A stretch of DNA of 64,000 nucleotides, from assembly GCF_000151315.2 (NCBI RefSeq), contig NW_011887292.1, forward strand, positions 2,519,181 through 2,583,180. Reading direction: 5' to 3'. Source of the DNA: Capsaspora owczarzaki ATCC 30864 (Eukaryota; Opisthokonta; Filasterea). Made by a program: the position numbers and the translations under genes. Below, piece by piece: positions 17,486 to 64,000 of this stretch (position 1 is its first letter; every line of letters begins with the position of its first letter). The notes beneath the pieces were generated by a model. That model saw only the letters and a program-made list of their open reading frames with translations. It was not told where the DNA came from and ran no database searches.

Positions 17486-18781
17486 GGTTGGCTTGGTTTC
17501 AAAGTGTTGATGGTTGGAATTTCTTTTTGGGATGCACCGAAAAAAAAAAAAAAGCGAACAAAGCGAACAAAGCGAAAACGGATTGAAACGAAAAAAAAAA
17601 AAAAAGACAAAAAAAAAAAAAAAAGACTGCCCAAAAAGATGAACAGAAAAAACGACACTCTCATCAAATCATCATGCAATAGCGATGTGAGGGGATGGGT
17701 TTTTGTAGTTGATTTAGTATCGATAGACAGTTTTAATGGCAAACAAAACATATTCGTCGCACACTCCGAAAACAATCGAACAAAAACGAGTTGCGTCGTT
17801 GAAAAAAGCCGTGAAAACCAAAAACGCAACGTCAAGCAAATTTTCACAAGCAGGTATTAATTTTTTCTCGTCCTTCCCAACAAGTCCGAATGCATGCTCG
17901 AAAGTTGAGCAAACGAAGAACGACGACGGAATTGGGGAAGAAGAGAAGGAAGAGTTCCCAGCAGGGCAGGGCAGGGGCAGGGCAGGAGAGCGGAAGGCGT
18001 TGTTTGTGTGCGCATTGCCTGATGTTCGCAGACAATCCGCGGCAAAAGGCGCAGGCGTGTCATCATGCGAAATAAAAATACCCAAAACACCTGACAGATA
18101 AACAATCAACCAGCAATCCAATCGAAATTCGACGCCGATCGTATTTTCACGGCTTGGCGGCAAGGAATTCGCGCTTTCCGAACAATTCTCCCGTGTGTTT
18201 CTCTCTCTCTCTCTCCTCTGCCAACGCCAGGAATGAAGAGCACGATGCAGCGCAAGTGCAATCATAGTCGACATTATCAGCGAACAAGGATCCTTTGAGA
18301 TTGCCAAACCGAGCAGAAACAGCGTTGCAGATTTTGGTGTGGCCCAAAAGCCGATGCCCGATCTGCCATCGGGCCGAAACAACTTCCCCCAGTGCAGAGG
18401 CAGCACTCGGTTGAGCTCAACCCTGTCTTGAGACTGCAGAGTCAGCAGGGGACTGCATCGCTGCGCAAGAATGGGAGAGTGTTTCAGGGCCGAAACGAAT
18501 GCTGCGAACTCTTTCGGCACGAATGCTCACAAGCTGTTTGTTTCTGACACAAGCACATTCGATGATATGGTAAATCTTCTGCATACTGCAGGACAATTGG
18601 CGTAGGAATGAGAAGATCGCAAAGTCCAACTTGGAAAACGGCTGCCCACTAAGACCTGAGCGTCGCTCTGCGTTTTCACTCTGGTCAACAAACCGACGTG
18701 CAAGCCAGATAGAAATGCTCTATTGATGTCCATCTGGAGCCTAGATTCGGGATCACTCTACCATCTCTTTGGACGAAACAA
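17486..18781. other. Intergenic region, poly-A tracts and a doubtful open frame
   Basis: About 1.3 kb lie between the starts of ACSF3 (minus) and the DUF1764 gene (plus). The left part has A tracts at 17540-17625. A (CT)n tract lies near 18198-18217. A 268-codon minus-strand open frame (18520-17714) has no recognisable motif, a stretch of runaway hydrophobics and codon use unlike the neighbours, so it is not called as a gene. Both promoters should lie here. Confidence 0.5.
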
Positions 18782-30268: not shown

Positions 30269-33200
30269 ATGCACAAGCGACCAGCGGCAACATACAGTCG
30301 CAAAGTCGCGGCTTCTGACTCGGCCTCGAATGCGTTCGACACGATGATGGTGCAAGCGTCCCCTCCACCACTTCAACCGTCCGACCAGACTCCTCAAGAT
30401 CGTAGCCCATCAACACAGAGCCATCGCTCCTACTCGACTGGGCGCGCTGTGGTGCCAACTGCGAGCGAAACCACGCGAGCACCACTGAATCCAACCACGG
30501 TGGACCAGGCTCAGACTCGAGCGATCGCGGCACGACCGTCGACGGCGACCTCCTCCTCGCCGTTGCGCTCGACGCAGCAGAGGTCACTGCGTGCATCCAC
30601 GAGCGACAGCACGAGCCAGTCGTCGCTCCAGCAGCCAGCGAAAGCCAACTCCACGCGACCATCATCATCCGTCGATGAAGCCGAAGAGGCCTCGTCCTCG
30701 TCCTCGTCCGCGACGGCTCGCCCGCTGCTGACTGCTCCACGCCCTGGACGGCGATCGCTTGCACTGACGCCACCGAGAGACAGCGTCAGTGCGACGGGCG
30801 GTGCGATCCCAGTCATCAAGCGAAATCCATTCAGTGGGCGTTCTGCACCGCTACCGACGACGAGAGCGAAGGAAGCCACCTTGGCTGCCGCACCCTCTGC
30901 GTTTGACTTTGACGATGACGACGATCCAGCAACCAAGCCATTAAAGCGCACCGCCAGTCCTGCCCGTCGAGTTCCCAATTCCGTTCTTCCGGCTGCATCC
31001 ACCAGCGCTTCCAGTTCAAGCTCTCCGATCGATGCCAAGCCTCCCCGAATAGCAGAGGCGGTCAATACCAAAGCCCTTTCGTCTTCATTTCGCACCTCTC
31101 CTCGAACTCGTTCGCCGCCGGTGGAGCAAGGCTCGCCTGCGCGAGAAACCCTTACCGTGGCCGTTCCTCGCGCGTCCGCTGCTCGGCGGCAGCTTGCTGC
31201 GTCCACTCAAGCGTCTGCACTCTCTACCCTTCAGCAGCCTCCTATCACTACTGGCACGACCTTAGGTCGAAGTATGAGCGCAACAACAACAACCGCAGCC
31301 CCAGCATCCGCCGTCGAGCCCGTTCCTGCGCGCGCCTCCCCTTCGCGGACAGGGCTATCAAAACAATCATCGCCATCCAGCTCTCCTGCGCGCAAGCCTC
31401 CTGTCGCTGCCAGCACCGCCAATCCAGCACGGCCAACCACAAAGCGACCGACGGAAAAGCGCACTTTGGCCGACACAGTCACATTGCAACCGAAACGTGT
31501 GCGCGTGGAAGACCCTTTCGACGATCTGGAATCACCGGTTAGTATAGATTGGGGCGAGAGGGGGCAGGGGTTGGATGGAGCCCGAGTTGCACGTCTTCCA
31601 TGTTCTTGTCTGCTCGATCACTCACCCTCACCGTTAACGCCCAGGACATGTCGCTTGCTCTGACTGGATCACTGGCGTCTCGACAAGCTGGCGAAAACCA
31701 GCAGCTTCGCGACGATCTCGAGTATATGCTGGAAGGTCTCGGCTCGGCCCAGCCACCTGGAGTGCGCTGCAAAAGGTAGCCGAGAATTCGACCAACTGGC
31801 GCTTTAACTTTGTCCTTTGAACAATTCCATCTGTCAACGGCTTTCACTGACCTTCACAACGCTTGGGGCTTGTCTGTTTTTTGTTTTGTTTGTTTGTTTT
31901 TGTTTTGTGCAGCATGTGTACGTTGGCAGAGCAAGCGGCATCGCAAGATTTTCAACTACATTTTCGTGCATTGGGTACCCTTTCTCGAGTCTGCCGGATG
32001 TTGTCAGATGCTCCCCAGCATGCGGTATGGTGATTGTCAATGATGTTGGTTGTTTTCAATTGGTTGTAGGGAGCTGCGCTCACACGACGCTTCTTCTTGG
32101 CAACAGGACTTGGCCATTTGCACTGCTGGTTTTTTGGCCGTCTTTACGCGCGATTCTGCCGTCCTTGATGCATCAAGCGATCTGCTCAAGCTTGCGCTCG
32201 CCTTGTTGGAAACTGCACTAGCACCCAAGCCGATTGCCAACCAGAGTTTGGCAGCTAGCAGCAGCAGCAGCAGCTCGCTCACCCCGCGTATGCGAGCAAC
32301 TGTTGCAGCCATGCTGGCCACCATTCCACAGCTATTGCCCGAACACCGCTCTGGCTCGCTGCTGCTGCCAATAGTTCTCGTCGTCTTGCGATCCATCGCC
32401 ACCTGCCGCAATATCGAAAGCGTGCGCCGGCACTTGCTGGCTTCCACTCCACTGTTGGCCCAGGTAGCTAGCGTATTTGTGCAACAGCAAAGGCACTTGC
32501 AGAGTCAGCAGACGCGCTTGCTGTTTCCGCAAGCGGGCGGTGAAGAAACCTCGCCCGCGGCTGCTGCCACGCTCTGGACGATGCAAGAATGCATGACCAT
32601 CCTCAGCGACCTGACGGTCGCAGCCACACCCGAGACACAACTGCGACTAGTCGTGGCACCAACGCCAGAGACGGACCCGCAGTCGCAAGCCTCATCCACT
32701 TCATCATCGTCATCGTCTGCAGAAGCCATTCATCCCAGTGCGCTGCTTGTTTCGATTGTCGACTTTTGGGCGTGGCTGTTGGAGCAAATCAACGAGCCTC
32801 TCGCTGATGTGAAAGGACCTGGATCGACCGCGCCCAAAAAGCACCAGTCGCGTGCCGCCCCTTTGCCTGCTTTACCTGCCACAACAACTCGTCGAATGTT
32901 GCCAAGTAGCTGCACGAACATTAGCGTGTCTGCGCTGCGTGTGTTGATGAACGCCACAAATAACCAGTCTGAAGCGTGCTTGGCGGTGGCCGCCGCGTCG
33001 CCAGGACTGGCCGTGATTACGGAGACGGCACTCGTCCTGGCATCGCATGTGGTTGAAGACAGCGGATCAGCAACCACGTCGCGCGTTGCGGGTGGCGTGG
33101 CACACCACAACCACATCACGCACGATGTGCGCGTCTACGGGCTTGGCTTGCTTGTCAATCTGACCGAGCATACGTGGAGCAATCGCCAGGCGATAGGAGT

Positions 33201-34071
33201 GCTCAGCTTGTCCAAAGCGCAAGTTCGCGGCCTAGCACCGACCTTTGCAACGTCTCAGCATGAGGAACCGGCCAAGAATAGCGCGCACTTGTTCGACCTA
33301 GCCACCTCGGAGCACTTACCCATTTCGCAAGCCGTCTTTCTCCAGCTCGTGCATCGGCAACCCCAACCGACTGTTCCATCCACGCCAACGACACCGACTG
33401 CGGGCGCGCCGACCTCTTCTGGCACGGCATCAGCAACGACACGAGGGCGTCGAAAAGCAACTACTACTCCGCCTGCTGCTGCTGCTGCTGCCCCACCCAC
33501 CGCGGCTCCTCCCGCTGTTTCGCAGCCGCCGGAGCTTGATGAGCAGTCTGAAACAGATCGCAACATTACCGGCGCCTACGCAGCGTTATTTCTGGGCTGT
33601 CTTGTGCGCGATCATGACTTCAACCGAGCTCTACTGCAGCGTGCCTTCCCGTCCGAGGATTGCTGGGCCCAAATGGTGCATCTTCTTGCCGGATTTGTCG
33701 AGTACCAGCGTGCTCTGGGAATCGTACTGTCCGACGAGACGTGCGCGTGCATTGCCGATGTGATGGACGTGTTTGTCCCGGGTGCGGGCACAGAGCTGCG
33801 CGGCACGACAGATCGTCACACCTCGACCAACACCGGGCAAGGTGTTTATTCGTCCCAGCACGAACCTTTGTCCACCCCGCTCAACTCAGACCTCTCCTCC
33901 GCGGTGCCAATGGCCCTCGAGCCACCACAGGGCGCTTCGGGTTTCACGCAACCACCCGCGTCAAACGAAGCATCCGCACCTATCGAGAGCGACAGCGATG
34001 ATGATGATGATGGCCAAGAGCCTGACTGGCTGCAACAAACGCGAGTCAAAGTCAGGTCGTCTCAGTCGTAA
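30269..34071 (+). CDS. WAPL: Cohesin release factor WAPL
   Basis: Releases cohesin from chromatin together with PDS5. Exons are 30269-31537, 31645-31775, 31913-32024 and 32074-34071, giving about 1169 residues, near the human length. The start MHKRPAATYSRK was chosen because it places TYSRK, the PDS5-binding YSR motif, at the N-terminus as in animal WAPL. A disordered Ser/Pro region follows. The C-terminal HEAT-like WAPL domain begins LRDDLEYMLEGL and continues with RVCRMLSDAPQ, LAICTAGFLAVFTRD, SALRVLMNATNNQSEAC, YGLGLLVNLTEHTWSNR and ITGAYAALFLGCLVRD, each matching the conserved WAPL order. The acceptor for the last exon is placed at 32073 because it keeps phase. The tail is acidic (SDSDDDDDGQEPDW). 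Confidence 0.9.
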
Positions 34072-45183: not shown

Positions 45184-48100
45184 ATGTCGTTCTTCAACTC
45201 GATCTTCTCCACTGCTGCTCCGACGCAGACTGGGCTCCAGACTGTGGAGAAGTTGTGCGATCGGCTTGAGCATTCAACCCTGCTCGAGGATCGCCGCAAC
45301 GCCGTGCGCTCGCTCAAGTCGCTGGCCAAAGAGTACCAGGTACGATAAACATTGTTGATTCTGTATTGTCGCCGCTGTCACCGTTGCCGTTGGCATGAGC
45401 GAGCGAGCGCAAGTAGGCAAGAATCGCGAGATCTACCAAATTTCGCCTTCCCCTTCTCCTCTCTCCACACAACTCCACACAACTCCGACCGACCTCACAT
45501 CCATCTACATATGAAGCGAACTCCAACCGCGTCCTTCACTGTTGCAACGCGCGTGTTTGAGTTCGACGCCGACAAAGGCGCCACCTCTTCAATTTCTCTT
45601 ACTCTGGTACAACCACTCGCTCTCACTTTTGCTCGGTTCCGTTTGGGGTCGTCGTTGCATTTTGTGACTCGTAGGCGGACGTTGGCCGACTCGGTCTGCA
45701 TCTCTTGCTGCACGTCCTCGAGAACGACAGCACGGACGCCGACATTACACGGTTTGCATTGGAGACGCTGATCGCCCTGTGCACTTCGAAACCAAGCCAA
45801 GCTGCCAACACGACAGCAGCAGGGGCGCCTGCAGACGACGATCTGGGCTTGCGTTTCACGGAAGCATTCATCCAGATGAACGACACAGTCTCGCTGCTGC
45901 TGTCGCTGCTGGCTGAGAACGACTTTTACGTGCGCTACACCACTGTGCAGCTTCTGACACTGCTGCTGACCAACAGGAGCGACCAGCTCCAGAACTGCAT
46001 CCTCGCTGCACCAATGGGCATCTCGCGTCTGATGGATTTGCTCAAGGATTCGCGAGAGAGCATCCGCAACGAGGCGCTGCTTCTTCTCGTCCAGCTCACC
46101 CGCTCCAACCAGGCCATCCAAAAGATTGTCACGTTCGAGAACGCGTTCGAGTTGCTGCTTGACATTATGGAAGAAGAGGGTTTTGCCGAGGGTGGCATTA
46201 TCGTGCAGGACTGCTTGCATCTCATGTCCAACCTGCTGCGCAAGAACGTAACCAACCAAAATTACTTTCGCGAGACAAGCTGTGTTCCGCGCCTCGTGCC
46301 CTTCTTGCGCAGCTTGAGCCCGAGTCACGCCAGTGCCTCGGCGCCTCCGGCTGCGTCGCACCACAACAACGGCTCCTCGCACCACCACCACCAGCACCAG
46401 CACCACGGACACGAGGGTCACGGCCACTCGCACGACGGCGACGACGACCATGAATCGCATGGACACTCGCATGCAGGAGGCCACGGTGGTGGCGACGCAC
46501 AGACTCCCCAACCCGCCCACTGGACGGAACAAAAGACGGCAAACGCGGTGCTCGGCCTGCAGCTCATCCGAATTCTTGTTCCCCCAAACAACACCAGTAT
46601 CGTCATCACACAAAAGACCATGCTCCAGCATGGCATCATTGCGCTGCTAGCCGAAATCGCCCTCTTCGAGGACCTCCCGCCGCGCGTCAAGTGCGAGGCG
46701 CTGAGCACTGCTGCAGAAGTCATCCGAGGGCTGCCAGCCAGCCAAGATGCGTTTGCGCAGTGCCGAGTCTCTGTCAACGGTGCCATTGTGGCCACGCCCC
46801 TGGCCCTGCTGTTTGCCATGCTGGAGCCGCGTCGCGCGTTCGCCGAGCGCTCCGCTGCGCTCTACCTGTTCCAGTCGCTGGTCTTGAACAACGAGGACAT
46901 GCAGACAGCTGTTGCGTCCACGCTCCCTGGAAACTCCATCCCCTTCATGCCCGCGCGCGCCGCTGCTGGTCGAGGGCAGTCGTCCGCGCTGGGCTCTGGC
47001 ATCCACCCGTCGTCCTCAAGCAACAACCTGATTGCGACTGCCGGTCTTGGCTCTGGTGGTGTCACTCTGGTGGCTCATGTGCAAGGCGCAGGCGAGCTCC
47101 TGGCCAACGGCTTGTTCAATGCCCAAGATCCGCTTGCCAACTGGCTGTGCTCGATTGCGCTGGGCTCGGTGATTACCAATAGCACGGTGGCCAAGGACAT
47201 GGCGCTGTCCTCCCACATCTCCGCTCGTCTCGGCGAAAAGCCCCTCTCGCTCATGTCGCAGTGCACCAACGCCATGACCCAGGTGTCGGGAACAGGGGCG
47301 CTTTCCCGCTCGTCGGTCAGCTCTCCGTCTGCCGCCTCCTCCGATCCGTCCAGCACGCCGCGCACCCTGGTGGGCCTGCTTCGCCTTCTCTGCTCGTGGT
47401 TGGCAGACTCGCCTGCTGCCGTCCGCACATTCCTGCACTCGACTTACAACCTGCCTTTCCTGGTCGAGCTTCTCGAGCAACACCACTCGACCTCGACTGG
47501 CGCCGTGTCCGTTGTCATCCAAGGCATGGCGGCACTGCTTCTGGGCCTGTGCTTTGCCCACAACGACGTTGCCGAGTCCACCTTCAATCGCGCATCCATC
47601 CGGCTGACCATCCAAAACCGCATCAATCTCGAGACCTTCAATGGCTATATTGCCAATCTTGGCAGGTGTGAATACTTTACCAAGGCTGCCTCCAACACGA
47701 GCTTTTCAAGCACGAAGCCGGGCGATGTGTGGTTTGATTACGAGTTTACCGTCCTGTTCAAGCGCGCGTCCGTCGCGATCGAACGAGCTCTTGATCCTGC
47801 GTATGAGCATCTTCAAACGCTGCCACAAGCACCCTCGGCACCGCAGGGCTATGCCTTGCCGTATCAGAACTTTGGCCAGAATCCGGGCGTGGCATCTTCG
47901 CCCCAACAACAAGGCCAGCCTTCACCAATGCCACCGCAACAGCAGCCACAGCAGCAGCACCAGCAGCAACAACAACAATACCAACAGCCTCTGACCCCGG
48001 TGCAGCAATCAACCCAGCAGCCCTACTCACCCACGCCGCAAGCGTCGGCACAAGTTGCTGATCACTCGGCAGATCATGCCCTTGTCTTGCAAAACTTCAA

Positions 48101-48552
48101 AGATCTCATCCGCAAGCAAGACAGCGAGATTGCGCAACTCCGAGCCGCCGTATCTCAACGCGATAGCGAGATTGCGACTTTGGTAAAGTCGTGGAATGTC
48201 GTTCTGGTTTGTGGTTTGAATTCTGTTTGCCGGTTTGAAAAAGTCTGTCGTTCTCATTTTGGTGTGCGTGGTTCCCCTCCCTTTTTTTTTTGAATTGGGC
48301 GTGTAGACTACACAGGTCCAAGCTTCCAAGCAGTCCACTCCAACTTTGCCGTCGCAAGGCGAAGTCTCTGCGCTGCAAACTCTGACAACCCTGCAGCAGG
48401 AGCACGACTCTCTGAAGGCAGATCACGAAGCGCTGCTTGGCATTCTGGCCGAGTATGACGACACCAAGGCCAAGTACAGGCAACGAATCTTGGATCTGGG
48501 CGGCGAAGTCACTGATGAAGAAGAAGAAGACGACGGCGAAAGCGAGCAGTAA
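45184..48552 (+). CDS. USO1: General vesicular transport factor p115 (USO1)
   Basis: Golgi tether that acts with RAB1 and GM130. Exons are 45184-45339, 45675-48182 and 48307-48552, giving 969 residues, close to human p115 (962). The armadillo head starts LQTVEKLCDRLEHSTLLEDR and continues with PMGISRLMDLLKDSRESIRN, TRSNQAIQKIVTFENAFE and GGIIVQDCLHLMSNLL, nearly identical in order to p115. A His/Gly/Asp-rich loop (46362-46497) is inserted between armadillo repeats. The head extends to about residue 690. A Gln/Pro-rich linker (QQQPQQQHQQQQQQYQQ) precedes a short coiled coil (LIRKQDSEIAQLRAAV) and the acidic end ILDLGGEVTDEEEEDD, which matches the acidic GM130-binding tail. Confidence 0.95.
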
Positions 48553-48790: not shown

Positions 48791-51114
48791 TCATCCAGAG
48801 ACATACGGGGCGATGCGGAGCGGATGCGCTTCGGTGTTGAAGACATACTCGTCCAATGGTAGTACGTCTCGAGGGCTAAACAGCAAAAAGAGGTACTTGA
48901 GCGTCTCAGCCAAGAAGAAGCTCTGCATAGAGTTGTTTTGCTTGGGATTTGGGGAATTGACATTCTCGAGACCAGAGTAGGCACTTGGGGTGCGGCAGTG
49001 ACGCTCGATCGCTTCGAAAATGGCCCACCCCCAGTCCTGGTACACGGGATTGCCCGTGAGACGGAAGAGCACGAACAAGCTCTCGATCGTTTCGGGCCGC
49101 AACAGGTAGTTGGCAGATCGGACGGAATAGCCACGGTCGGTATCGGCGGTTCTATCGGCACTCAAGCGCTCGTCTTCGAGCTGAAGCTGCAACGTAGCCT
49201 GCTCGGCAAGCGTGAGGGGCTGCCATTTTTCAGACGTTTTGCCATCAAAGGCAACGGTTTCTGGACCAATGCCAGACGGCGACTCCAAGTAGAGGCGGGC
49301 GCAAGTGTACGCCAGATCTGCCGCCAGCGCCAAATCTTCGTCAGGGTTGGGACCGCCCTCGGCACCGAGTGCGAGCAGCCCAGGCAGGTAGCAAGACAGA
49401 TGCCCCATTTCATGAACAGCGACATTGTTTCGGCGATCGGCGACATACAGGAGCTTGGTGGCCGCGGAGCGGAAGAGCAAGTGTTGTTTGAGCGCGACGA
49501 CGGCCTCGTCATACATACGACGGTGCTGCACTTCGCGCGGGTGACCCCTAAACAGTAGAGCTTGCTTGAGAAGGTACTCGTAGAAGCTGTCCGCGAGAGC
49601 GCCAAACGAAATGTCGTTGCCAGAGAACAGTCCCGTTTGGGGATGAATGAGCAGAGGATACAGGCCGCTGACTTCAAGAGGCTGCGCCGCAATCGCATCC
49701 ATGGCAGCCTGGGCCTTATCGCCGTAGATGGGTGTTTTGGAGTGCGCGGACAGATACTTGAACTCGAGCTGGAAACTACCGACTTCAGCAAGCAGAGAGT
49801 TGCCCCGCGTCCACTCTGGGTTTTTCGACACGCCCGTCTTGACATTGACCTCGTGATACGGCAGGCCTGTCTTGGTCTCGAGGGCAGGCATCAAGCGGTT
49901 GGCCAGCTCTACGGCTTTCAGCAGATAGATTCCATCCATGCTCAACTCGTACGCACTCAGCAGACCACCCACATAGCGGATGGTCGTCTCAAAGAACGAT
50001 ACGCTCTTGTCGTCGGTGAAGTGCAGGGCAGCAATGTGTTTGCGAGCCTGCGCGAAGGAGGGAAGGGAAGGAAAGGGGAAAAGGGGGCAAGAGCGACATG
50101 GCGCGAGAGCACAAATCAAATGAGCAAGGGGTGAGCACCAAGGCTTGGGTGAACAAAGGTACACTCAGAACAGCAAACATTGACTGTACCTTCAGAACGA
50201 CAGATTCCAGCCCCATCAACATGGCAGTGTCCAGCCCATCAATCATTGTGACACCCCAGCCGTTCCAGCTGTCGTTCGTCGCATTCGTAACAGGTCGAAT
50301 CTGAGGCGTAGACCCATAAAGACGAATACAAATGAATGATGTGGCGCAAAAATGCTGACGCACAGAAAAAAAAAACCCCACAAACAAACCAAAACAAATA
50401 AAACAAACAAACAAAAAAAAAATCTGCCACGCGACATACCTCATCGTGACCCCAGGCGTGAGTCTCATAGCCAGTCCACGCATGAACAAACGCTTGCGTG
50501 ACGGCAGTGCGGTGAGTCTCAATCTTGGCTGCGCGATCCGCCGCTGCTTTTTTCTTGTTGGCGAGCGCAGCTTGTCGCTCACGCTCCTGTCGTGCGCGTT
50601 CCTCGGGAGTCAGCCTGAGACCAGCCTGCTTGAGCTTTTGGTACTCGAGCTGCGCCGCTGCTTGTATCCGAGCATTGGCATTGATCTGGTCCAGGTATTG
50701 TTGCTTTCGCTGGTCGTGCTCCTGCTTGAGATTGAGCAGGCGCTCCATTTCGTCGTTGATTCGCTTCTCCTCCGCCAACCTTTCTCGCTCAAGATGAGCT
50801 TGCATCTGCTGTTCATCGTCCAGCTCCTCTGCAGGCTCCTCTGCAGGTTTCACTGCAGGTTCCTCTTGCGCAGGCGGTGGCGGCGGTGGCTCTGGCTCTG
50901 CTTTCACCGGCTCGGCCTGTTTCGCGCCAATCTTTCAGAATGTTCTGGCCAGGGAGTTTTCCGTGCCTGTTTCTGGGCTTGTTGGGTTTGACGTCTTTCT
51001 TCGGTGCTGCTTCGGTGCTGCCGGATCATCAGCCCCATCGTCGTCGGGAATGTCGGCCTTTGGTTTGCCACCTTGATTCGGCCATTCTTGATGTGAATTG
51101 CATCCCCATCATCG

Positions 51115-51974: not shown

Positions 51975-54611
51975 TTACAAAATGGTGCAAGTACCACTGC
52001 CAGTCGCAGCTGGCGGATTGGTTGGCGTGCGCGCTCCCGTGCCAATGGATGCCGTAGAGTTCCGCGCGCTACCTGGATCTGTACGCGGGACGGAGCGCCG
52101 CTGTGGCGGTTCTGGGGCCTGTGCAGTCTGTGGGTCGGTCCGGCGACCTTGAGCTGCTGTGCCTTGCGGCGCAGGGTGCGGCTGGTGCTGCTGCTGCTGG
52201 TGCTGTTGTTGGTGCTGCTGTGGTCCATTGGGCGGTTGGTGAGCACCTTGCGCCTGAGGGGCGGCAGGATTGGGTTCGCCGAGGACCACAGCACGACGAG
52301 GGTTGTTGATCTCTTCCAGCTTAAACTTGGTGCGCCTCAAGTTCTCGCGTACGCGGGCCGTGTACGGATGGTCCGGTCCAAGCCAGCGCTCGCGGATGGC
52401 CAGCGCACGCTCGTACAGGGGGATGGTCTTTTGCAGCTCGCCTCGAGACTTGTACAAGGCGCCGAGATTGACGCACACCCGAGCCACCTTGGGATGGCTC
52501 GGGCCGTGTATCCGCTCGCGGATTGGCAGTGCCTTGAGATAGTGCTGCTCTGCAAGGTCAAACTCACTCAAACCATCGTACGCCAAGCCCAGGCCGACAA
52601 ACGTCTGGGCCATTTCTTCGCTATCTTCGGCAAACAGTTTTTGTCGAATCCGCAGGGCCTCTTCATACAACGGTAGGGCTTCCGAGTAGTCGTGCAGCAC
52701 GTAGTGAATGTCGGCAAGGGCAAACGTGGCGTTCGCAACCTCTTCTCGCTCCGAGCCGAGCGTCGCCTTGTACATGACGATTGAGCGCTCGCGGAGCCGC
52801 TTCGCACCGTTCTCGCCAGTCAAGCGGCCCTGGTTGCCCTTGACGAGCGACAAGTTGTACAGGGCATCGGCCAGCCGCTTGGCTGCACAGCCGCGTGTCA
52901 GCACGGCAAGCGCACTTGAGGACAGCTTTGTCGACACGTCAGCCAGAGTAACTTTCTGGCACACCAGGGCACGAACGCACAAGGTTTGAAGATCCGGGAC
53001 ACCTGCAGGAGCCGCCTCTTTGGTGGTGGCAGACGCCAGTTTCGTTGTGGCCGAATCCAATGGCGGACGCTGTGTCGAGTCTTGCCGGTGTAATCCCGCG
53101 GCGGCAGACGCATCTCCCGAAGATTGCCCTTGCCCTGCGGCATGTCCATGAGCATGCGCAGAGCCATGTGCGTGGTGCCGACGACTAAAGTTGGATGCGG
53201 CAAACGTGTTTACATCTTGGTCGCTGATGGCAAAGGTGGAAACCTTATCCTGAAGGGCCAGCGCCTCGAATAAAATCAACGAAATGTCGTACGCATGCTG
53301 GAAGAGGCCCTCGGCAATCTTGTACGCGCCATACTCGCGAATTTTATGAGCCGCAGAGGTCATCCGGACGACGATGGCGTCGTCCTGCATGAATGCCAGA
53401 GCTACATAGTTGACGCGATCGATCAGCTCCTGACGCGTCCGCGGCGCAATGTGCCTGTTCCAAAAGCCAGGAGGAACATGGCCGTGTTGCTGCTTGAACG
53501 AGGCGGCTTCTGCCGCATTCGGGGGCAAAAATAGCGTGGGCGGGTGCCCATCGCTGCCATTTGGCATGAAGGGAGAGCTGCCTGGCAAAGAGGTCGACAA
53601 AGACCCGGGGCTCGGCAGGGAAGGAGAGTCCTTCCTCAGGGCGGCCTCGATTGAATGGGGCGTGCCGCCGGGCGAGGACGGAATGGTGCTGCTGCGACGC
53701 CTCCCGCCACCCGTGGCCAACAGCCGTGTCATGTGCGGAGTGAATAGAACGCACTTTAAAGGGTCGTATTTACACAAGGTGAGCACCACGAGGCGCCAGT
53801 CGACATTTGGCTCGCGCGTGTGCAGCACTTTCAAGTGGTCGCGCTTGCAAATGTAGTACCAGACCTCCAAGAGCGAGCCAATGTGGTACATCATCCTGCA
53901 GGTGAGAGAGAGATTGCCGAGACTCACAACATCCAGCTGCATGCAAAGGAAGGCGAGAATTTCTGGAGGTAACCTGAGCAGCGGCGACTGTTGCCGCAAC
54001 TCGAGCTCGGTCTGGGTTGGGTCGACAAACGACGAAATGGAGGACGATGTCGAGTTGCGGCGGGATGAGGTGGCAGTGGAGGCCTCTGATGGCGATCCTA
54101 CCCCACCGTCGTGAAGACTTGCATCGCTGGCAACGGCAGGTGTGGAAGAAGAAGATGCAGAAGAAGAAGAAGACGGCTTGGAGTGCCCCTGTTGTTGTTG
54201 ATGGTGCTCAGCGTGCAGTTGCTGCGGCTGCTGGTGTTGGTGTTGATGCTGTTGCTGTTGTTGTTGGGTCACCAGTTGCGAAAACCAACCAGTCACCTGG
54301 GGTTTGGGTTGATGGTTGCTGCTCAGGGCGTTTGGAAGCTCAAGGGCCGAGGCTGTTGCTGTTGCAGCCGAGAGCCACGGATCGACACGTTGCAAAGCGG
54401 GATCGGTCTCGCCCAGCTCCTCGTCATCATGCTCATCGTAGCGCGAAATGCGGCTCGACGCCGGACTGCCGCGAGACATGTTTGAACTGGGGCTGGCTTC
54501 GCCTGGCGTCCCCGTGCGACTGGGACCGGCGCTAATCGGCATCCATCGGTCACTTGCCCGTCCGCCACTTGAGGATGGTCCCGACGGCGCGATGTATGGT
54601 CGCTTTTCCAT
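51975..54611 (-). CDS. F-box and kinesin-light-chain-type TPR protein with a CaaX end
   Basis: 878 residues in one exon. The start MEKRPYIAPSGPSSSGG leads into a disordered region with a Gln/His tract (QQQQQQHQHQHQQPQQ). An F-box follows: SPLLRLPPEILAFLCMQL, then SLGNLSLTCRMMYHIGS. A middle region with low-complexity loops follows. The C-terminal third has TPRs of the kinesin-light-chain kind, for example DYSEALPLYEEALRIRQKL, FDLAEQHYLKALPIRERI and LQKTIPLYERALAIRERWLG, at 42-residue spacing. The protein ends GSGTCTIL, a CaaX box whose final Leu favours geranylgeranylation. The predicted role is a membrane-anchored SCF substrate receptor. No intron was needed to read it. The family has no settled name known to me. 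Confidence 0.85.
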   Translation of the reverse strand: MEKRPYIAPSGPSSSGGRASDRWMPISAGPSRTGTPGEASPSSNMSRGSPASSRISRYDEHDDEELGETDPALQRVDPWLSAATATASALELPNALSSNHQPKPQVTGWFSQLVTQQQQQQHQHQHQQPQQLHAEHHQQQQGHSKPSSSSSASSSSTPAVASDASLHDGGVGSPSEASTATSSRRNSTSSSISSFVDPTQTELELRQQSPLLRLPPEILAFLCMQLDVVSLGNLSLTCRMMYHIGSLLEVWYYICKRDHLKVLHTREPNVDWRLVVLTLCKYDPLKCVLFTPHMTRLLATGGGRRRSSTIPSSPGGTPHSIEAALRKDSPSLPSPGSLSTSLPGSSPFMPNGSDGHPPTLFLPPNAAEAASFKQQHGHVPPGFWNRHIAPRTRQELIDRVNYVALAFMQDDAIVVRMTSAAHKIREYGAYKIAEGLFQHAYDISLILFEALALQDKVSTFAISDQDVNTFAASNFSRRHHAHGSAHAHGHAAGQGQSSGDASAAAGLHRQDSTQRPPLDSATTKLASATTKEAAPAGVPDLQTLCVRALVCQKVTLADVSTKLSSSALAVLTRGCAAKRLADALYNLSLVKGNQGRLTGENGAKRLRERSIVMYKATLGSEREEVANATFALADIHYVLHDYSEALPLYEEALRIRQKLFAEDSEEMAQTFVGLGLAYDGLSEFDLAEQHYLKALPIRERIHGPSHPKVARVCVNLGALYKSRGELQKTIPLYERALAIRERWLGPDHPYTARVRENLRRTKFKLEEINNPRRAVVLGEPNPAAPQAQGAHQPPNGPQQHQQQHQQQQHQPHPAPQGTAAQGRRTDPQTAQAPEPPQRRSVPRTDPGSARNSTASIGTGARTPTNPPAATGSGTCTIL

Positions 54612-55412
54612 CGCAATCTGCTGGTGGGAACACAACAAGGTGAGGAAGTTGAGGCCTTGTGTTTGGGGTCAGCTCTGTTTTTGTTGGCAGTCGGTCTTAC
54701 AATAAGAAGCGGGGGGACTTTCAAATCAATCTCGATAAAGCTTGTATTGGTTTCGTCTCGATGTCGCCTGCCAATGGCCGCTCGTTGCGATACGAAATGC
54801 TTGTTCGATATGTCCAATGTGGTTTCCTGTCAAACAATCGCCGCGTTTGAACGCTGTCAAATCGGCCAGTGAGTTCAGCAGCAGCCATTGCAACCACCAC
54901 CCCCACGCCCACCAACCGCCACCCAAACCACACAGCAACTAGCATAAATGAGTATCGGGATGTCAGCTCGCCCACCGTCGCCGACAACAGGAAGAGAGGC
55001 GGAATTTGAGTGAGTGTCAAGGTTTGATGACGAACGGGAAGAAAGAACCCCCGCTCTCCTTTCCCCGGCTTGGATAAACCGTGAGCTTGGAAGCCATCTT
55101 GGACTGAGCATGCTTATCAGACGCACTGAAGCCCCACACACAAGCACTGGGCCCGCGCTTCCCCTCTTCCCCCTCTCCTACGACAAAGGCTTGAGAAAAA
55201 TAGAAAAAAAAAAAAAAAAGGGAACGAGTTTTCCGCTTTCTATCTCTTTCATTTGTTTTTTGCCACACTTGTGCTCGCAGTGCATTCATTCATTGTGCGT
55301 TAGCAACTCGATCATTTCGCCCTGTGCAGTGCCCCAAAAAGTCAAAACGCAAGAGTCGCTACTGTTCTGGTTGGATGAGGCGAGTACGAAGCGGCATAGC
55401 GAACCCCCGCTT

Positions 55413-55825: not shown

Positions 55826-56752
55826 TTAGTGCTTGGGTGCCATGCGCTTGGAAAGATAGATCGTCCACAGGAAGGCAACAGCGTTGGCAAAGAGAACGCG
55901 GTACTGGAGCGGGATGTAGTTCAGGTTGATGAACTGGGCGGGTGTCCAGACAATCAAGTTCATCTTGACAGCACCAGGGTAGAGGGTGCGCACCTTGTGC
56001 ATGGTTTCCTCCCACGTCTTGCCCTAGACAATACAAGACAAAGGGAGGGGGTGGGGGATTGGTCGGACGCGAAATCCATGCCAGGTGAGCACTGTGACAA
56101 ATACTAAAATCAACAACACACACTCAACCTACCTCAAGCAATGACACCACGATAAAGAACAAGAGAGTGAAGAGCGGTGCGAAAATGAATCGCTCGCCGA
56201 GCAGCTTGATGAACTGACGCGATCGCGACGGTGGCTTGCCGGGAGTGGAGAAGCGCTCCAAGATTTCGTAAAACTTGTGAGTGATTGGTCCGTTAAAGCA
56301 GAGTCTAAGCAAGCAGCCGCAAAAGCAACCATTCAGAGGCATTTTCGACGTGATGCATTCGGGTGAGTGAGTCAGACAAGGTCTGTGTTACCCAAAGATC
56401 GCATAGGATGCGATGGAGCGATAGTCCACGCGAGGAGTGTTCCGGATGCGCTGCGAGAGAACGTTGCCTGCGCCACCAAAGGCCAACAAAAGCACCAGTG
56501 AATGAGCTGACTTCTCAACAACATGCATGCACAGACATTCAGGCCGAGCCCTTGAGTGGGACAGCAGGAGAGGGGTTAGCAGGATGAGTTGTCGGATTTC
56601 GTCTGCCCCCTCCAGCAGCAGCCAAACAGCTCGACGATCGGAGGGAAAGACGCACCGAGTGAGGCAATGACACTTGCAGACACGGCTTTGGTGAGCATCG
56701 GGCGTCGTTGGAGCGCGCCGAGGTACGCCTGCAGCAGTGCGTTGTTCGCCAT
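55826..56752 (-). CDS. Mpv17/PMP22-family membrane protein
   Basis: Small multi-span protein of peroxisomal or mitochondrial inner membranes. Four exons start MANNALLQAYLGALQRRPML, matching the family's LW..YL..L...P..TK pattern, followed by TKAVSASVIASLGNVLSQRI. The second exon has VDYRSIASYAIFG and the third LCFNGPITHKFYEILERF, the conserved GP..H.WY position. The C-terminal exon has NLIVWTPAQFINLNYIPL followed by QYRVLFANAVAFLWTIYLS, the family signature. About four transmembrane helices are expected. Stop TAA at 55826-55828. PXMP2, MPV17 and SYM1-type members cannot be separated from the sequence alone. It faces the first GILT gene across 153 bases. Confidence 0.88.
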
Positions 56753-56905: not shown

Positions 56906-58155
56906 ATGCGAAGCTCTGTCGCCCTGTTCGCGCTCGTCGCTCTGCTCGGCTTTGCGGCCGCCGGTGCGTCTGCCATGCCCGCCCACAAGTTCCACCACCG
57001 TCCCGTTCACCACAACGGCGACGCTGACACTGCTGCCTACCCGCTCATCGAGATCACGCTCTACATGGAGTCGCTGGTAAAGCACTTCATCAGCCTCTTT
57101 CTCCCGCTCGCTTTTTGTCGTCATTGCTCAACGCTCAGTGCTCGTGTCGACGGCAACCGGCGAACAGCCATTCTGGCCAGATGAGTGTTGGCGGTGTTGG
57201 TGGTGGGGTGGGGTTTGAGGGGCGGCTCTTGAACCGGGGTCTGCTGGGTGACTCGTGATGATACCTCCGACACGCACTGATTGACAGACATGCACACATA
57301 CACGAGCACACTTTTGGCTGACCTTGTTTCTGACCTTGCTTCGGTTTTGTTTCTGTTATCATTCTTAGTGCCCCGACTGCCAAGCGGTAATAACGAAAAG
57401 CAGGCTCAAATGTTTGGAAATCATCTCCAAAAACTCACTTGTTGTTCAACGTGTAAACAGCTCATTGCTGGCGATCTCTGGAACGTCTGGAACTCGAGCA
57501 TCTCTTCCATCATGAACTTGACCCTTGTTCCGTACGGTAACGCCAAGGAGTCGCAGTCCGGATCGACCTGGGAGTTTACTTGCCAGCACGGGTAAGTCAG
57601 GTCCTGATTGCTCGTGCCCCTTTGGATTCATGATTTGCTCATGGTATTGGTTTGGTGTATCCCGATCGCTGCTTGCAGCATGTACGAGTGCGTTGGTAAC
57701 GTTCTCGAGGTAAGCCGAGTGCTCAATTCGTTGTTTTGTTTTGTTTGGGTTTTTTTTCGAAGAAGTTTTCCGCTCACTCAACGCACGCTTCCTCTTCACC
57801 ACAACCCCCCCCCATCCCTCCGACATAGACCTGCGCCATCAACTTGCTCCAGAACTCGACCGTCTGGTTCCCGTTCATTCACTGCCTCGAGGGCACTTCT
57901 GCCCCCAACGCTGCCGGCCCCGCTTGCGCCGCCAAGCTTGGCATCAACTTTGACCCCATTGATGCCTGCATGACCTCCGCCCAGGGCAACGCCATGGAGC
58001 ACGAAATGGCGCTCAAGACGGCCGCGCTGGTTCCCGCCCACACCTACGTTCCCTGGGTCACGCTCAACGGTGCCCACTGCGTCCCATGCGAGAACGGCCA
58101 CCTCAAGCAGGCCATCTGCGGTGCCTACACTGGCCCGAAGCCCGCTGACTGCTAA
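56906..58155 (+). CDS. GILT-type lysosomal thiol reductase, copy 1
   Basis: Gamma-interferon-inducible lysosomal thiol reductase family; reduces disulphides in endolysosomes. Five exons: 56906-57076, 57369-57386, 57461-57591, 57679-57709 and 57829-58155, encoding 225 residues. Signal peptide MRSSVALFALVALLGFAAAG. Exon 2 is only 18 bases and encodes exactly CPDCQA, the CxxC active site. Exon 4 is 31 bases. Exons 3 to 5 together give CQHGMYECVGNVLETC, a perfect match to the GILT signature CQHGx2ECx2Nx4C. Possible N-glycosylation at NSS, NLT and NST. A C-terminal CVPCENG and ICGAYTGPKPADC add further cysteines. It shares exon sizes and most sequence with copy 2. Confidence 0.95.
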
Positions 58156-58545: not shown

Positions 58546-58948
58546 ATGCGAAGCTCTGTCGCCCTGTTCGCGCTCGTCGCTCTGCTCGGCTTTGCGGCTG
58601 CCGGTGCGTCTGCCATGCCCGCGCACAAGTTCCACCACCGTCCCGTTCACCACAACGGCGACGCTGACACTGCTGCCTACCCGCTCGTCGAGATCACGCT
58701 CTATATGGAGTCGCTGGTAAAGCACTGCACCTTATCAGCCTCCTTCCCCCCCTCGCTTGTTGTCATTGCTCAACGCTCGTGTCGGCGGCAACCGGCGAAC
58801 AGCCATTCTGGCCAGATGAGCGTTCGTGGTGACGGGGGGTGTGAGGTTTGATGCGAAAAACAAAAAAACGTGGATCAGGAAAGTGTCGCGACCGGCCTGA
58901 CTCGTGACCTGTGATGTTACCTCGTGATGATAGATCAACTTCACACTT

Positions 58949-58995
<47 letters not shown>

Positions 58996-59933
58996 CTCTC
59001 TCTCTCTGCCATACACGAGCACGCTTTTGGCTGACCTTCATGCTGACTTTGCTTCTGACCTTGCTTCTTTGGTTTTCTGTGATTATTCTAGTGCCCCGAC
59101 TGCCAAGCGGTAAGAACGAAAAGCAGACTCCAAATGTTTGGATCTCTCGAATCCATTTCTCGTATCCAAAAACTCACTTGTTGCTCCACGTGTAAAACAG
59201 CTCATTGCTGGCGATCTCTGGAACGTCTGGAACTCGAGCATCTCTTCCATCATGAACTTGACCCTTGTTCCGTACGGTAACGCCCAGGAGTGGCAGTCTG
59301 GATCGACCTGGGAGTTTGAGTGCCAGCACGGGTAAGTCAGGTCCTGATTGCTCGTGCCCCTTTGGATTCACGATTCGCTCATGTTGTTGGTTTGGTGCAT
59401 CCCGATCGCTGCTTGCAGCGCGCGTGAGTGCATTGGAAACGTTCTCGAGGTAAGCCGAGTGCTCAATTTTTTACTTTTTTTTTTTTTGTTGTTGTTGTTG
59501 TTGTTGTTTGTTGTTGTTATTTCCAAAAGAAGTTTGCCGCTCGTTCTCTCGCACTCACTCAACGCACGCTTCCTATTCAACACAACCTCCCATCCCTCCG
59601 GCTTAGACCTGCGCCATCAACTTGCTCCAGAACTCGACCGTCTGGTTCCCGTTCATTCACTGCCTCGAGGGCACTTTCAACCCCTGGTCTGCCGGCAACC
59701 AATGCGCCGCCTATTTTGGCATCGACTATGCGCCCATTTATGCATGCATGAACTCTGCCCAGGGCAACGCCATGCAGCACGAAATGGCGCTCAAGACGGC
59801 CGCGCTGGTTCCCGCCCACACCTACGTTCCCTGGATTACGCTCAACGGTGCCCACTGCGTCCCATGCGAGAACGGCCACCTCAAGCAGGCCATCTGCGGT
59901 GCCTACACTGGCCCGAAGCCCGCTGACTGCTAA
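58546..59933 (+). CDS. GILT-type lysosomal thiol reductase, copy 2
   Basis: Tandem paralogue of the preceding gene with identical exon lengths: 58546-58716, 59092-59109, 59201-59331, 59419-59449 and 59607-59933. Exon 1 differs from copy 1 by a single Ile/Val change, and the 18-base CPDCQA exon is identical. The GILT signature reads CQHGARECIGNVLETC, so all its fixed residues are kept. Most replacements cluster in exon 5 just after HCLEGT (FNPWSAGNQCAAYFGIDY against SAPNAAGPACAAKLGINF), while the 3' half of that exon is again nearly identical. Intron 1 has gained a long (CA)n tract. Same predicted lysosomal role, probably with different substrate preference. Confidence 0.95.
58952..59007 (+). 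repeat. (CA)n followed by (CT)n microsatellite
   Basis: About 20 CA units run into about seven CT units inside intron 1 of GILT copy 2. The matching place in copy 1 lacks the expansion, so it arose after the duplication. Confidence 0.95.
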
Positions 59934-60144: not shown

Positions 60145-61627
60145 ATGTCGAGTTCAAGCAGCGTTTACAGCGGCGACTACTCTGCCGACGATCGCAGCCT
60201 CAACGTGCCCGGTGCGTTCACCCTGAGTGCTCAACTACGCTGTCCTAGTTTAATATCAGTAGATGGAGGGTGGAGTGGTGAGTGGTGAGTGGGGATGGGG
60301 GTGTCGTGGTCAGAATGCTGGTCTCTTGGCGAAACCAAAAAAAAAAAAAAAAAAAAAAAAAAGACCTGTTTTTCTTTTGGCTTCTTTGACAAGCAAGAAC
60401 TCTGACACGCTGCTGCTGGGCTTCTTCTTGTGTGATGCTCACTATTGCTTGCATTATTCGACCAACACAATGAAAGCGGAGCGAGAGGGGGGGGGAGAAG
60501 GCACTTGGGAGAAGCGAACCATTCGAGGGAATCAGTGAAAAGCGAGAGAACCATGTGCCGAGTGACTGTGACTGTGATTGTGGCCGCCCGCATAAACCCC
60601 TGACTCTTGTCCCCCCCCCCCATTTGGCCACTTTGGCTGGTGAGGCCAGGATAGACCGCCGTGGGATTATTTTGGAGGACGGGAAGGGGAAGGGGAAGGG
60701 AAGGAGAACGGGGAAGGTCTTCGCTTGGCTCTTCTCCCACTGTCTCTCTCTGTCTCTCCGGTGCTGACTGTGCGATACCGTTGTAACTCACGATTTGGCA
60801 TGCGGTCCCTTTTGGAACACAGTGACACCGAACGTCAACCAAGTCGGACGAATGCTCTCGTCGTATGCCTGGCAGTATGACCCGGCTGTCTTTGCCAACA
60901 CGAACATGGAGCTGCTTGCTCCCGAAAGCGTCTCGCAGGCTCCCCTCGGCATCGGCCATCGTGTCTGCTATGGTAAAGCTTCTTCTGCTGCTCTACGAAA
61001 AAAAAAGCCAACGCACAGGATCGAGGATGGTGGAAATTGCTGCAAAGGGGGTTTTTTTTTTTCCTTTTTCCCCTTTGTTTGTTGCACTCATTTCGTCCAC
61101 TTGTTCTCGGAATGTCAGGCACTGGCACGTCGTACTTGGCTGGTGCAGCGCTTGGCACGCTTTATGGCGTGGGCTCTGGTCTGCGCAACCCTGACGCCAC
61201 CTCCACCCGCCTGAAGGTCAACAGTGTGCTGAACAGTGTGACACGGCATTCCCAATCGGTCGCGCACACTGTCGGTGTTGTCGCGCTCGTATACACAGTC
61301 ATGGATGGCGTTACCATCCGCCTTCGCGATGGCCAAGACGATGCCTACAACACAATCGGATGCGGTATTGGCACGGGCCTTCTTTTGCGCTCAGCGTGTA
61401 AGGAGTGTTTTGTGCAATGTTTTGTTTTTTGTTTTTTATTTTGATTTTGGAAACGAGTTGGGGGGGCGGTTTCTTGAGGAGCTAATCACTGTTTCCGCTG
61501 TGTCATCCCAACAGCTGGCCTGAGGCGTTGCTTGATGGCCGGTGCCCTCGGTGGCGCCATGGCCGCAACATACTATTTCGGCAACCAGATGCTCAATAAG
61601 AACGAGGATTCGGCACCACAACATTGA
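60145..61627 (+). CDS. TIMM23: Mitochondrial import inner membrane translocase TIM23
   Basis: Channel-forming subunit of the presequence translocase. Exon 1 starts MSSSSSVYSGDYSADDRS. After a 600-base intron with a 26-base A tract come VTPNVNQVGRMLSSYAWQYD, the intermembrane-space receptor part, and LLAPESVSQAPLGIGHRVCY. The membrane part has GTGTSYLAGAALGTLYGVG, the G-rich first span, then VNSVLNSVTRHSQSVAHTV, VVALVYTVMDGVTIRLRD and TIGCGIGTGLLLRSAAGLR. It closes with MAGALGGAMAATYYFGNQM. Four membrane spans and GxxxG-like packing match TIM23 rather than TIM17, because of the hydrophilic N-terminal domain. Four exons have GT-AG introns. Stop TGA at 61625-61627, with AATAAA three bases later. 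Confidence 0.93.
60337..60362 (+). repeat. Poly-A tract, 26 bases, in TIM23 intron 1
   Basis: A homopolymer in the first intron, flanked by non-repetitive sequence. No retroposon body was recognised next to it. Confidence 0.95.
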
Positions 61628-61702: not shown

Positions 61703-64000
61703 TCACAGCGTGTCGCGCTAGAGAATAAACAAAACAAAAACAGAATTAACAAAAACAAAAACTAACAATGTTCAATCCCAATTTTAAAGAATGCTACAGC
61801 AACCGAAAACACTTGGCGACTGGTAAGGCTGTAGGTGGTGTAAAGTAGCAGACAGAGACAGATACTCAGATGAGCTCAAGCAGCCAGCCAGCATCAATAC
61901 GCAAAACACAGCACCACCAAACTTGCCTTGTTGCCGAGCAGCCGAGTCGTTTCCGCGCTCGCTCGTCGGCGGACACTGCTGCTATTGATGGTACTATTGA
62001 CGCTGGACTTGGTTGACACCATGCCGAGCGACGCCACGTACGACATTTGCCGAGGAGAGGCTGGCGCCGAATTGACGGGTGTGGATGCCGGGATGGACAA
62101 GCTAATGCCCTCCACGGCGTTAGATGACATGAAGCGCGTTGATGGAATGGTACCTACGTCGTACTGCTTGGCGTTGATACTGGGCAGTTTGAGGTAGCGA
62201 CAGATGGCCGAGCATCGATGGGTCTGGAGGAATTTCTCAATGCCCTTAATGCCCAGGTTGCCCTTTCCAAAGCCTACCCGGTCGATGGTGTGCATTTGAG
62301 GGTCTGTGTACCGGTCACCCACTCCCTGGACGTCGCAGACAAGGAGCTGGTGCTTGGACGCCTCGTAGGTAAAGTGCGAGAACGCTTGCGGCGTGTTGCG
62401 CTCGTCGTCATCGTTTACATAGCCATAATTGTTGTTGTGCTTGCGGTATGGTCCGTCGATAAAGTGCTCTACGGCGCACAAGGGATGATTGGGACGATCC
62501 GTCAGCGAAATGAGCCACGCTTCGATAAACTCGATTTTCTTTGGCGGATTGTACGCATTGTAGCGATCGGCCCACAGGCGGCAAAACATTTGCATTTCTG
62601 CAAAAAGTGGTGATGGAGACGACGGGTGTGAGCTCATATCCACGAAAGGCATGAAAGCATGAAAAATAAAACAACAAACACAAACGGAAAAAAACAAACA
62701 AATAAAACAATCCGCACCTGCATCTTGGAAATACTGCTCGCGCTCCTCTTCCCCGACAGCCATCTTTGCCACAAAAGTAACACCCTTGTTGGCTTCAGAC
62801 AAGTCCATCATATGATAGGCCGCACGCAAGCCACCGCGCGCAAACGGCTCGCTCTCAATTTTCACGCTGATGGGCGTGTTTGTCCAAGTGCCCAAAGCGA
62901 CACTGAAAGTGTGCTTCATGGCGCTCTCGCTAGCAAGTAGGGCAAAGTCTGGAGGTGGCCGATGAGCGACGGTTGTTGGGCCTAGAGAGCGAGAGCGAGA
63001 GAGAGGATGAGCTACAATTCTCAGCATGTTGTCCGCCCCCCCCCCTCCTTCTGAACAAGCAAAAACCATCAAGACATAAGAATCTCTTCGCCCTTACTGT
63101 GTGACTCGCCGCGAGGACTGCCGCCAGCCGTTGTCGACGTCACTGAAGTGCAGGTGGTGCCCGTCAGCTCGTCGACCAGCTGGGCCTTGCGCTCTCGATA
63201 CTCGGTCACAGTAATGTAATCTTGTTCGTAGAGCTCCTTGAGGTTCTTGAGACGCGCCCAGTACTCGACCTGGCGTATGCTGGGAACGCCTTTGGTTGCT
63301 GCACGACCGCCCACATCGCTGGCAAACTTGGCGTGTCGCGAGCTTGGCCGTGTGTCAGAGCCATGCGAAGACAGTTCATCCGACGATGACGACGGAGGTG
63401 ATGCCATTGTGCCAAACGCAAGCGTAGCCGAGAGACGTTGGCGCGATACGTGCGAACGGCGCTTGGTCGAGTGGGTCCCGGACGACAGCGACGAGGATGA
63501 CGAGGCTGCCGACGGTGGCGGAGACGGCATAGACTCAGTGGCTGCCGTGGTGCCAAGCCCGTTGTTCAGCAGCGCCGGAATGGACGGTGCGGACGCGGCA
63601 GCAGCGAGTGGCATCATTGCAGCATTCAATTGCGGATGGTTCAAATCAGCAGACGCAGACGCAGACCCAGCAAGCGCACCGTCAGCTGCAGTCGACGCAG
63701 CAGCAGCAGCAGCAGCGGCGGCAGTGTCAGTAGCACTTGGAGTAGTCGCAGTAGTCGTTGAAGCAGTAGTAGTAGGAGTAGCAGCAGCAGCAGCGGTCGG
63801 AGCGGGTGAATTCGCTACGGAATGTCGGAGGTGAGATTGGCGTGGGTTCGCTGATGATGAGGCATCGCTCTTGTTGCTGCTGCTGTTGGCAGCCGACTCG
63901 TCGTCCTTGTCGTCGTCGACGTCCGCATCAGCACCGGCGTCTGCGTCCTCGTGCAGGCTGGCTGGACGGAGGAGTGCCCGTGGTGGTGGTGGTGATGGTG
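61703..64000 (-). CDS. eEF2K-like alpha-kinase, 5' part beyond the window
   Basis: Atypical alpha-kinase; the kinase domain resembles eEF2 kinase and myosin heavy-chain kinases. It is open to the right edge, so the N-terminus is missing. The visible N-terminal region is Ala/Ser/Asp-rich, then LKELYEQDYITVTEYRERK, a SHOCT-like helical pair. The kinase domain starts FSVALGTWTNTPISVKIESE, with the ATP-binding lysine in TFVAKMAVG, then EFIEAWLISLTDRPNHPL, LLVCDVQGVGDRYTDPQ, GFGKGNLGIKGI and THRCSAIC, the zinc-binding end. These match eEF2K closely. No Sel1 repeats follow, unlike animal eEF2K. The last 7 residues probably come from a GC-AG intron (61926-61718) and a 15-base exon giving GNKRDTL; reading through instead ends at 61894. 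Confidence 0.85.

Follow-up and report, generated by a model that had tools for sequence, protein, structure and literature searches.

The CxxC active site of two tandem GILT genes in Capsaspora owczarzaki lies on a predicted 18-nucleotide exon that is probably included as a rule

Results

Two tandem GILT genes with a shared layout

The window, a stretch of 64,000 nucleotides from contig NW_011887292.1 of Capsaspora owczarzaki ATCC 30864, contains two GILT genes that lie head to tail, both on the plus strand (Table 1). Each copy has predicted coding exons of 171, 18, 131, 31 and 327 nt, which together encode 225 amino acids and contain no internal stop codon. The GILT profile of Pfam (PF03227) matches the products of copy 1 and copy 2 with 113.1 and 109.9 bits, the curated cut-off being 22.4 bits. 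The N-terminal CxxC (CPDC, residues 58–61) aligns gap-free to 6nwx, a solved GILT structure, and the signature CQHGX2ECX2NX4C is present as CQHGMYECVGNVLETC and CQHGARECIGNVLETC, assembled from exons 3, 4 and 5. The copies share the N-terminal CxxC, this signature and the PF03227 match with the GILT/OSH1 thiol reductases, and the report on poplar OSH1 names both motifs (PMC7017176). Judging by these similarities, both genes encode putative lysosomal disulfide-reducing GILT thiol reductases. Unlike 6nwx, which has no cysteine pair at the aligned position, the two copies carry an extra CxxC (CVPC, C201–C204) near the C-terminus, the same in both.

A Pfam GILT search of the genome (27.46 Mb, 29 contigs) gave two matches, which are these two copies, and a protein search at E ≤ 10 gave six, all of them exons of the same two genes; both searches score the best candidates only, and a distant third copy could escape them. 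A pattern scan with one GILT protein, which reaches close relatives only, found no match in a viral contig collection; in a collection of non-eukaryotic genome contigs, the same scan produced seven pattern matches, none of them a relative. Pfam assignments for neighbouring genes are included in Table 1. Two of the ten stretches scanned, 30269–31537 and 25225–27174 (+), had no Pfam family match. Searches of the genome for transcription factor domains located Runt at 2 places, p53 at 1 and T-box at 6, the last in two contigs; a Rel-homology search came back empty, as it also did in controls. NF-κB, Runx and T-box have all been reported for Capsaspora owczarzaki (PMC6001378).

Table 1 Features of the two GILT genes and of neighbouring genes, in positions of the window; slashes within sequences mark exon boundaries
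Feature	Position	Strand	Details
GILT copy 1 exon 1	56906..57076	+	171 nt coding, N-terminus to ...ITLYMESL
Copy 1 intron 1	57077..57368	+	292 nt, GT-AG, acceptor 8.6 bits, top in region
Copy 1 micro-exon 2	57369..57386	+	18 nt, phase 0/0, CPDCQA (active-site CxxC)
Copy 1 intron 2	57387..57460	+	74 nt, GT-AG, donor GCG/gtaata 5.0 bits
Copy 1 exon 3	57461..57591	+	131 nt
Copy 1 micro-exon 4	57679..57709	+	31 nt, GILT signature core CQHG/MYECVGNVLE/TC
Copy 1 exon 5	57829..58155	+	327 nt including stop; contains CVPC, residues 201–204
GILT copy 2 exon 1	58546..58716	+	
Copy 2 intron 1	58717..59091	+	375 nt, GT-AG, CA repeat and CT run
Copy 2 micro-exon 2	59092..59109	+	18 nt, same as copy 1; donor GCG/gtaaga 7.2 bits
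Copy 2 intron 2	59110..59200	+	91 nt, GT-AG
Copy 2 exon 3	59201..59331	+	
Copy 2 micro-exon 4	59419..59449	+	31 nt, ARECIGNVLE
Copy 2 exon 5	59607..59933	+	stop included
Mpv17/PMP22 family	55829-56023	-	Pfam
Tim17/22/23 family	61121-61396	+	Pfam
Alpha-kinase	61897-63093	-	Pfam
TPR protein, F-box matches near cut-off	51978-54668	-	Pfam
Uso1/p115 vesicle tether	45675-48290	+	Pfam
Glycosyl hydrolase 47	48794-50044	-	Pfam
AMP-binding enzyme	15590-17626	-	Pfam
WAPL-like	32071-34068	+	Pfam

The two proteins are 90% identical (overall dN 0.065, dS 0.078). At the nucleotide level, the copies agree at 98, 95 and 92% of positions in exons 1, 3 and 5 and at 77% in exon 4; introns 1–4 show 76, 89, 94 and 84% identity over aligned bases. 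Gap columns number 107 in intron 1 and 17 in intron 2, a count that comes from two recent paralogues only. By sequence comparison, the shared layout is best read as one ancestral event, passed on to both genes when they arose by a fairly recent tandem duplication. Since the genes are recent tandem duplicates, the occurrence of a feature in both copies provides no independent support for its function. Intron 1 of copy 2 holds, at 58952–59010, a CA repeat of 41 bases and, after it, a CT run; both are missing from copy 1.

The differences between the copies are strongly clustered in codons 92–112 and 141–166, with changeless stretches between them. Thirteen of the 22 amino-acid-changing codons fall within one 26-codon stretch, a concentration reached in none of 20,000 permutations. 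This clustering could stem from selection acting on a substrate surface or from gene conversion in patches. Exon 4 was compared with the neighbouring introns for faster change that might point to selection; it differs at 7 of 31 ungapped positions, against 11 of 121 in the introns (Fisher p 0.057), and we do not rely on this comparison.

A predicted 18-nt exon encodes the active site

The initial annotation had described exon 2 of both copies as an 18-base exon, in phase 0 on either side, that encodes CPDCQA, the CxxC active site and nothing else. Its coordinates, flanks and reading frame were confirmed. The exon reads TGCCCCGACTGCCAAGCG in both copies, is preceded by AG and followed by GT (canonical GT–AG) and joins the 171 nt of coding sequence in exon 1 with phase 0 at both of its own edges. 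By length and GT–AG flanks it counts among internal micro-exons of ≤51 nt. The exon does carry the CxxC; the words 'nothing else' go slightly too far, because it also encodes the residues Gln and Ala.

Removing exon 2 from copy 1 lowers the GILT profile score from 113.1 to 87 bits, and the match then begins only at profile position 16. The exon adds, gap-free, the residues that align to the active site of 6nwx. These observations bear on whether the micro-exon has been misread, in which case the true transcript would join exon 1 to exon 3 or would use another segment. Room for such an error is left by the 16 in-frame AG..GT segments of ≤150 nt that lie between exons 1 and 3 in each copy, exon 2 counted, and by a self-trained gene finder, which took a different path in copy 1. 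A CxxC is borne by seven of the 16 segments in copy 1, four of which are exon 2 or extended versions of it, and by one of 16 in copy 2, namely CPDCQA. When the copy 1 interval from exon 1 to exon 3 was subjected to 1,000 dinucleotide shuffles, an in-frame CxxC segment of ≤150 nt arose in 253, so a bare CxxC is weak evidence; a short CxxC segment (≤30 nt) arose in 38 of the same shuffles and a six-residue CPxCQ in none. Against a misreading, the six residues required to complete the GILT alignment are exactly what exon 2 gives in both copies. On the strength of the alignment, this precise fit is not chance, and we consider a misreading extremely improbable. We infer from protein homology that the micro-exon is present in spliced mRNA.

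The accompanying claim, that micro-exons are hard for gene predictors, held for the one crude predictor used here, which placed exon 2 correctly in copy 2 and wrongly in copy 1. This gene finder was self-trained on 264 kb, made up of the window and 20 further stretches of the genome. In copy 1 it fused micro-exon 2 with intron 2 and exon 3 (57369–57591) and invented an exon in front of it (57139–57202). It detected micro-exon 4 in copy 1 but not in copy 2, where it also shortened exon 3, and it merged both GILT genes with the next gene. Loss of the active site from an annotation could pass unnoticed, because a model minus the 18 bases keeps an open reading frame and its Pfam GILT match. Exon 4 (31 nt) is itself a second micro-exon, overlooked in the initial annotation; at a length not divisible by three, it cannot be skipped without a frameshift.

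Splice sites and intron lengths

Splice sites were scored against 310 predicted introns, none of them from the predicted gene covering both GILT copies; this background consists of predictions, not transcripts. The acceptor of micro-exon 2 reaches 8.6 bits in copy 1 (69th percentile) and 7.6 bits in copy 2 (56th), and in both copies it is the top-scoring one among the AGs that lie between a point 30 nt into intron 1 and the exon 3 acceptor, the latter included. The next-best acceptor scores 6.3 bits in copy 1 and 6.5 bits in copy 2, where it is that of exon 3 itself; the exon 3 acceptors stand at 5.0 bits (25th percentile) in copy 1 and 6.5 bits (42nd) in copy 2. At the other edge of the micro-exon, the donor of copy 1 (GCG/gtaata, 5.0 bits) lies at the 32nd percentile and faces an equal-scoring decoy after position 57411, 25 nt downstream. 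The donor of copy 2 (GCG/gtaaga, 7.2 bits) lies at the 70th percentile.

Predicted introns have a median length of 129 nt, with 10th and 90th percentiles of 81 and 327 nt. Intron 2 (74 nt in copy 1, 91 nt in copy 2) is therefore near the short end of the predictions, and intron 1 (292 and 375 nt) is long for the genome. Intron 2 contains the pentamer CTCAC at −27/−28. Among 196 predicted introns of ≥110 nt, CTCAC is the pentamer most enriched 10–55 nt before acceptors (28 occurrences versus 5 after donors), and it may serve this genome as the branch-point motif. The tandem CTGAC repeats that precede the micro-exon were considered as branch points and rejected, being unenriched before other predicted acceptors (11 versus 10). 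The predictions include 28 exons of ≤51 nt and 11 of ≤18 nt among 264 internal exons; these counts, likely inflated by false exons (only 4 of the 28 have a length that is a multiple of three), were left unused.

Consequences of skipping and retention

Retention of intron 1, 2 or 3 introduces an early stop and retention of intron 4 alters the C-terminus, in both copies, so keeping any single intron would yield no alternative working form. Skipping of exon 2, as had been predicted, stays in frame and gives a product of 219 amino acids from either copy. This product was expected to be without thiol-reductase chemistry. It does lose the N-terminal CxxC, but it keeps the CVPC at C201–C204, and loss of all thiol chemistry is for that reason not to be assumed. 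The suggestion of a binding-only form is not supported: in copy 1 the skip form loses 26 GILT profile bits and the alignment before the active site, so a stable 'binding-only' fold may be out of its reach. Nor did we find the enzyme likely to be switched off by splicing; with the best acceptor found on the micro-exon in both copies, a splicing switch is, judged on splice sites, less likely than routine inclusion.

Discussion

In the five-exon layout shared by the two GILT copies, two introns only 18 nt apart flank the active site. We think it probable that the exon between them is included as a rule, a reading favoured by the position of the top acceptor on the micro-exon and by the short downstream intron. 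Intron 2 would be recognized across the intron (intron definition) and, in the order that we infer, removed first, so that the micro-exon and exon 3 would become one; splicing of intron 1 to the strong acceptor of the micro-exon would follow. In plants, introns upstream of micro-exons are the ones more often detained (PMC8831610). Both the length of the exon, a multiple of three, and its CxxC content would be by-products of where two introns sat, and the exon would have been kept because its loss would destroy the enzyme.

Part of the evidence points the other way. Intron 1 is long, and across eukaryotes the exons that are skipped have been described as tending to be short, to have weaker splice sites and to lie between longer introns (PMC6142364). 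The exon 2 donor of copy 1, in addition, is below the median and has the equal decoy 25 nt downstream. The long first intron and this weaker donor leave room for skipping. On the side of routine inclusion, about 81% of surveyed human micro-exons (≤51 nt) are reported to be constitutive, with stronger sites and shorter flanking introns; the numbers of constitutive micro-exons fall sharply with size, whereas those of alternative ones stay roughly constant (PMC4317164). Because constitutive micro-exons thin out in this way, 81% overstates the prior for an exon of 18 nt. The GILT exon resembles constitutive vertebrate micro-exons in its size, its above-median acceptor and its one short flanking intron (PMC4317164), and differs from them in that its upstream intron is long for its genome and its donor strength is mixed.

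Any skipping that does occur could simply be splicing noise, that is, low and unregulated omission of a hard-to-recognize 18-nt exon, yielding a non-functional product of little import. Exons of ≤51 nt tend to be skipped (PMC4317164), and copy 1 combines a weak donor with an equal decoy; the strong acceptors and the short downstream intron speak against it. We regard such noise as a substantial possibility, if not quite an even one. At a level below about 10% it is compatible with routine inclusion, and the odds of the two readings overlap.

Skipping regulated by life stage, in one or both copies, would have a different meaning: the 219-residue GILT without its N-terminal CxxC would then be a decoy, a form that only binds, or the off state of the enzyme. 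The preserved frame in both copies and the weak exon 2 donor of copy 1 are consistent with such regulation, and so are two reported precedents, the stage-dependent cassette exons of Capsaspora (PMC3870316) and the mini-exon of potato invertases (told in PMC6270675). Several observations weigh against it. The best-scoring acceptor found is that of the micro-exon. A length that is a multiple of three is shared by 85 of the 264 predicted internal exons, about one-third, and is for that reason no sign of design. RNA structure around the micro-exon, considered as a regulator, gave no signal and is unremarkable (z −0.09 and 0.09), and the skip form forfeits the profile bits and the alignment before the active site described above. 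Taken together, stage-regulated skipping seems unlikely to us. A version in which the paralogues have divided the roles, with copy 1 (gtaata, equal decoy) as a stage-regulated, skippable and redox-dead decoy and copy 2 (gtaaga) as the constitutive enzyme, appears quite improbable.

Reported transcript data for Capsaspora give the scale on which such events occur. In one or more stages, 191 cassette exons fall below a PSI of 95%; 29 exons change by at least 15% between stages, and annotated domains are overlapped by two-thirds of the exons under regulation; intron retention is commoner, with 2,986 of 25,677 introns at ≥20% in at least one stage (PMC3870316). For its junctions, that study drew on annotated splice sites and took a minimum of 8 bp to either side (PMC3870316), so the GILT micro-exon, if missing from that annotation, would not be scorable there.

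A catalytic motif on its own micro-exon is already known from plant GH32 enzymes, and the GILT case adds another enzyme family and lineage. Mini-exon 2 of the plant GH32 invertases and fructan exohydrolases comprises 9 nt and encodes DPN of the β-fructosidase motif; like the GILT exon, it encodes essentially only catalytic-motif residues. The GILT exon, in contrast, has 18 nt and phase 0 rather than 9 nt and phase 1. Skipping has been observed for the GH32 mini-exon and would be hypothetical for the GILT exon. In cold-stressed potato, the DPN mini-exon is lost from invertases by alternative splicing (told in PMC6270675); in chicory, deletion of the mini-exon marks a putative non-functional allele of 1-FEH IIb (PMC4477480); and in rice and maize, the mini-exon was missed in annotation (PMC8831610).

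The GILT exon also resembles the SRRM4-dependent neural micro-exons of animals in being short and a multiple of three. Those neural micro-exons mostly alter interaction surfaces. A Pfam SRRM_C search of the Capsaspora genome returned no match, but neither did it in controls, hence absence is not implied. An earlier report of a GILT micro-exon or of a GILT exon layout was not found among the papers listed from an open-access literature subset. The main text of the poplar OSH1 paper contains no word starting with 'exon' (PMC7017176), and for Capsaspora together with micro-exons the open-access texts returned only methods passages of a Creolimax study.

If the 18-nt exon is always included, as we consider probable, the two GILT genes would serve well to test gene annotation, and a protein that lacks the 18 bases in an annotation could be mistaken for a catalytically dead one. 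If the exon is instead skipped under regulation, the precedent of the plant invertases would be extended to a single-celled relative of animals.
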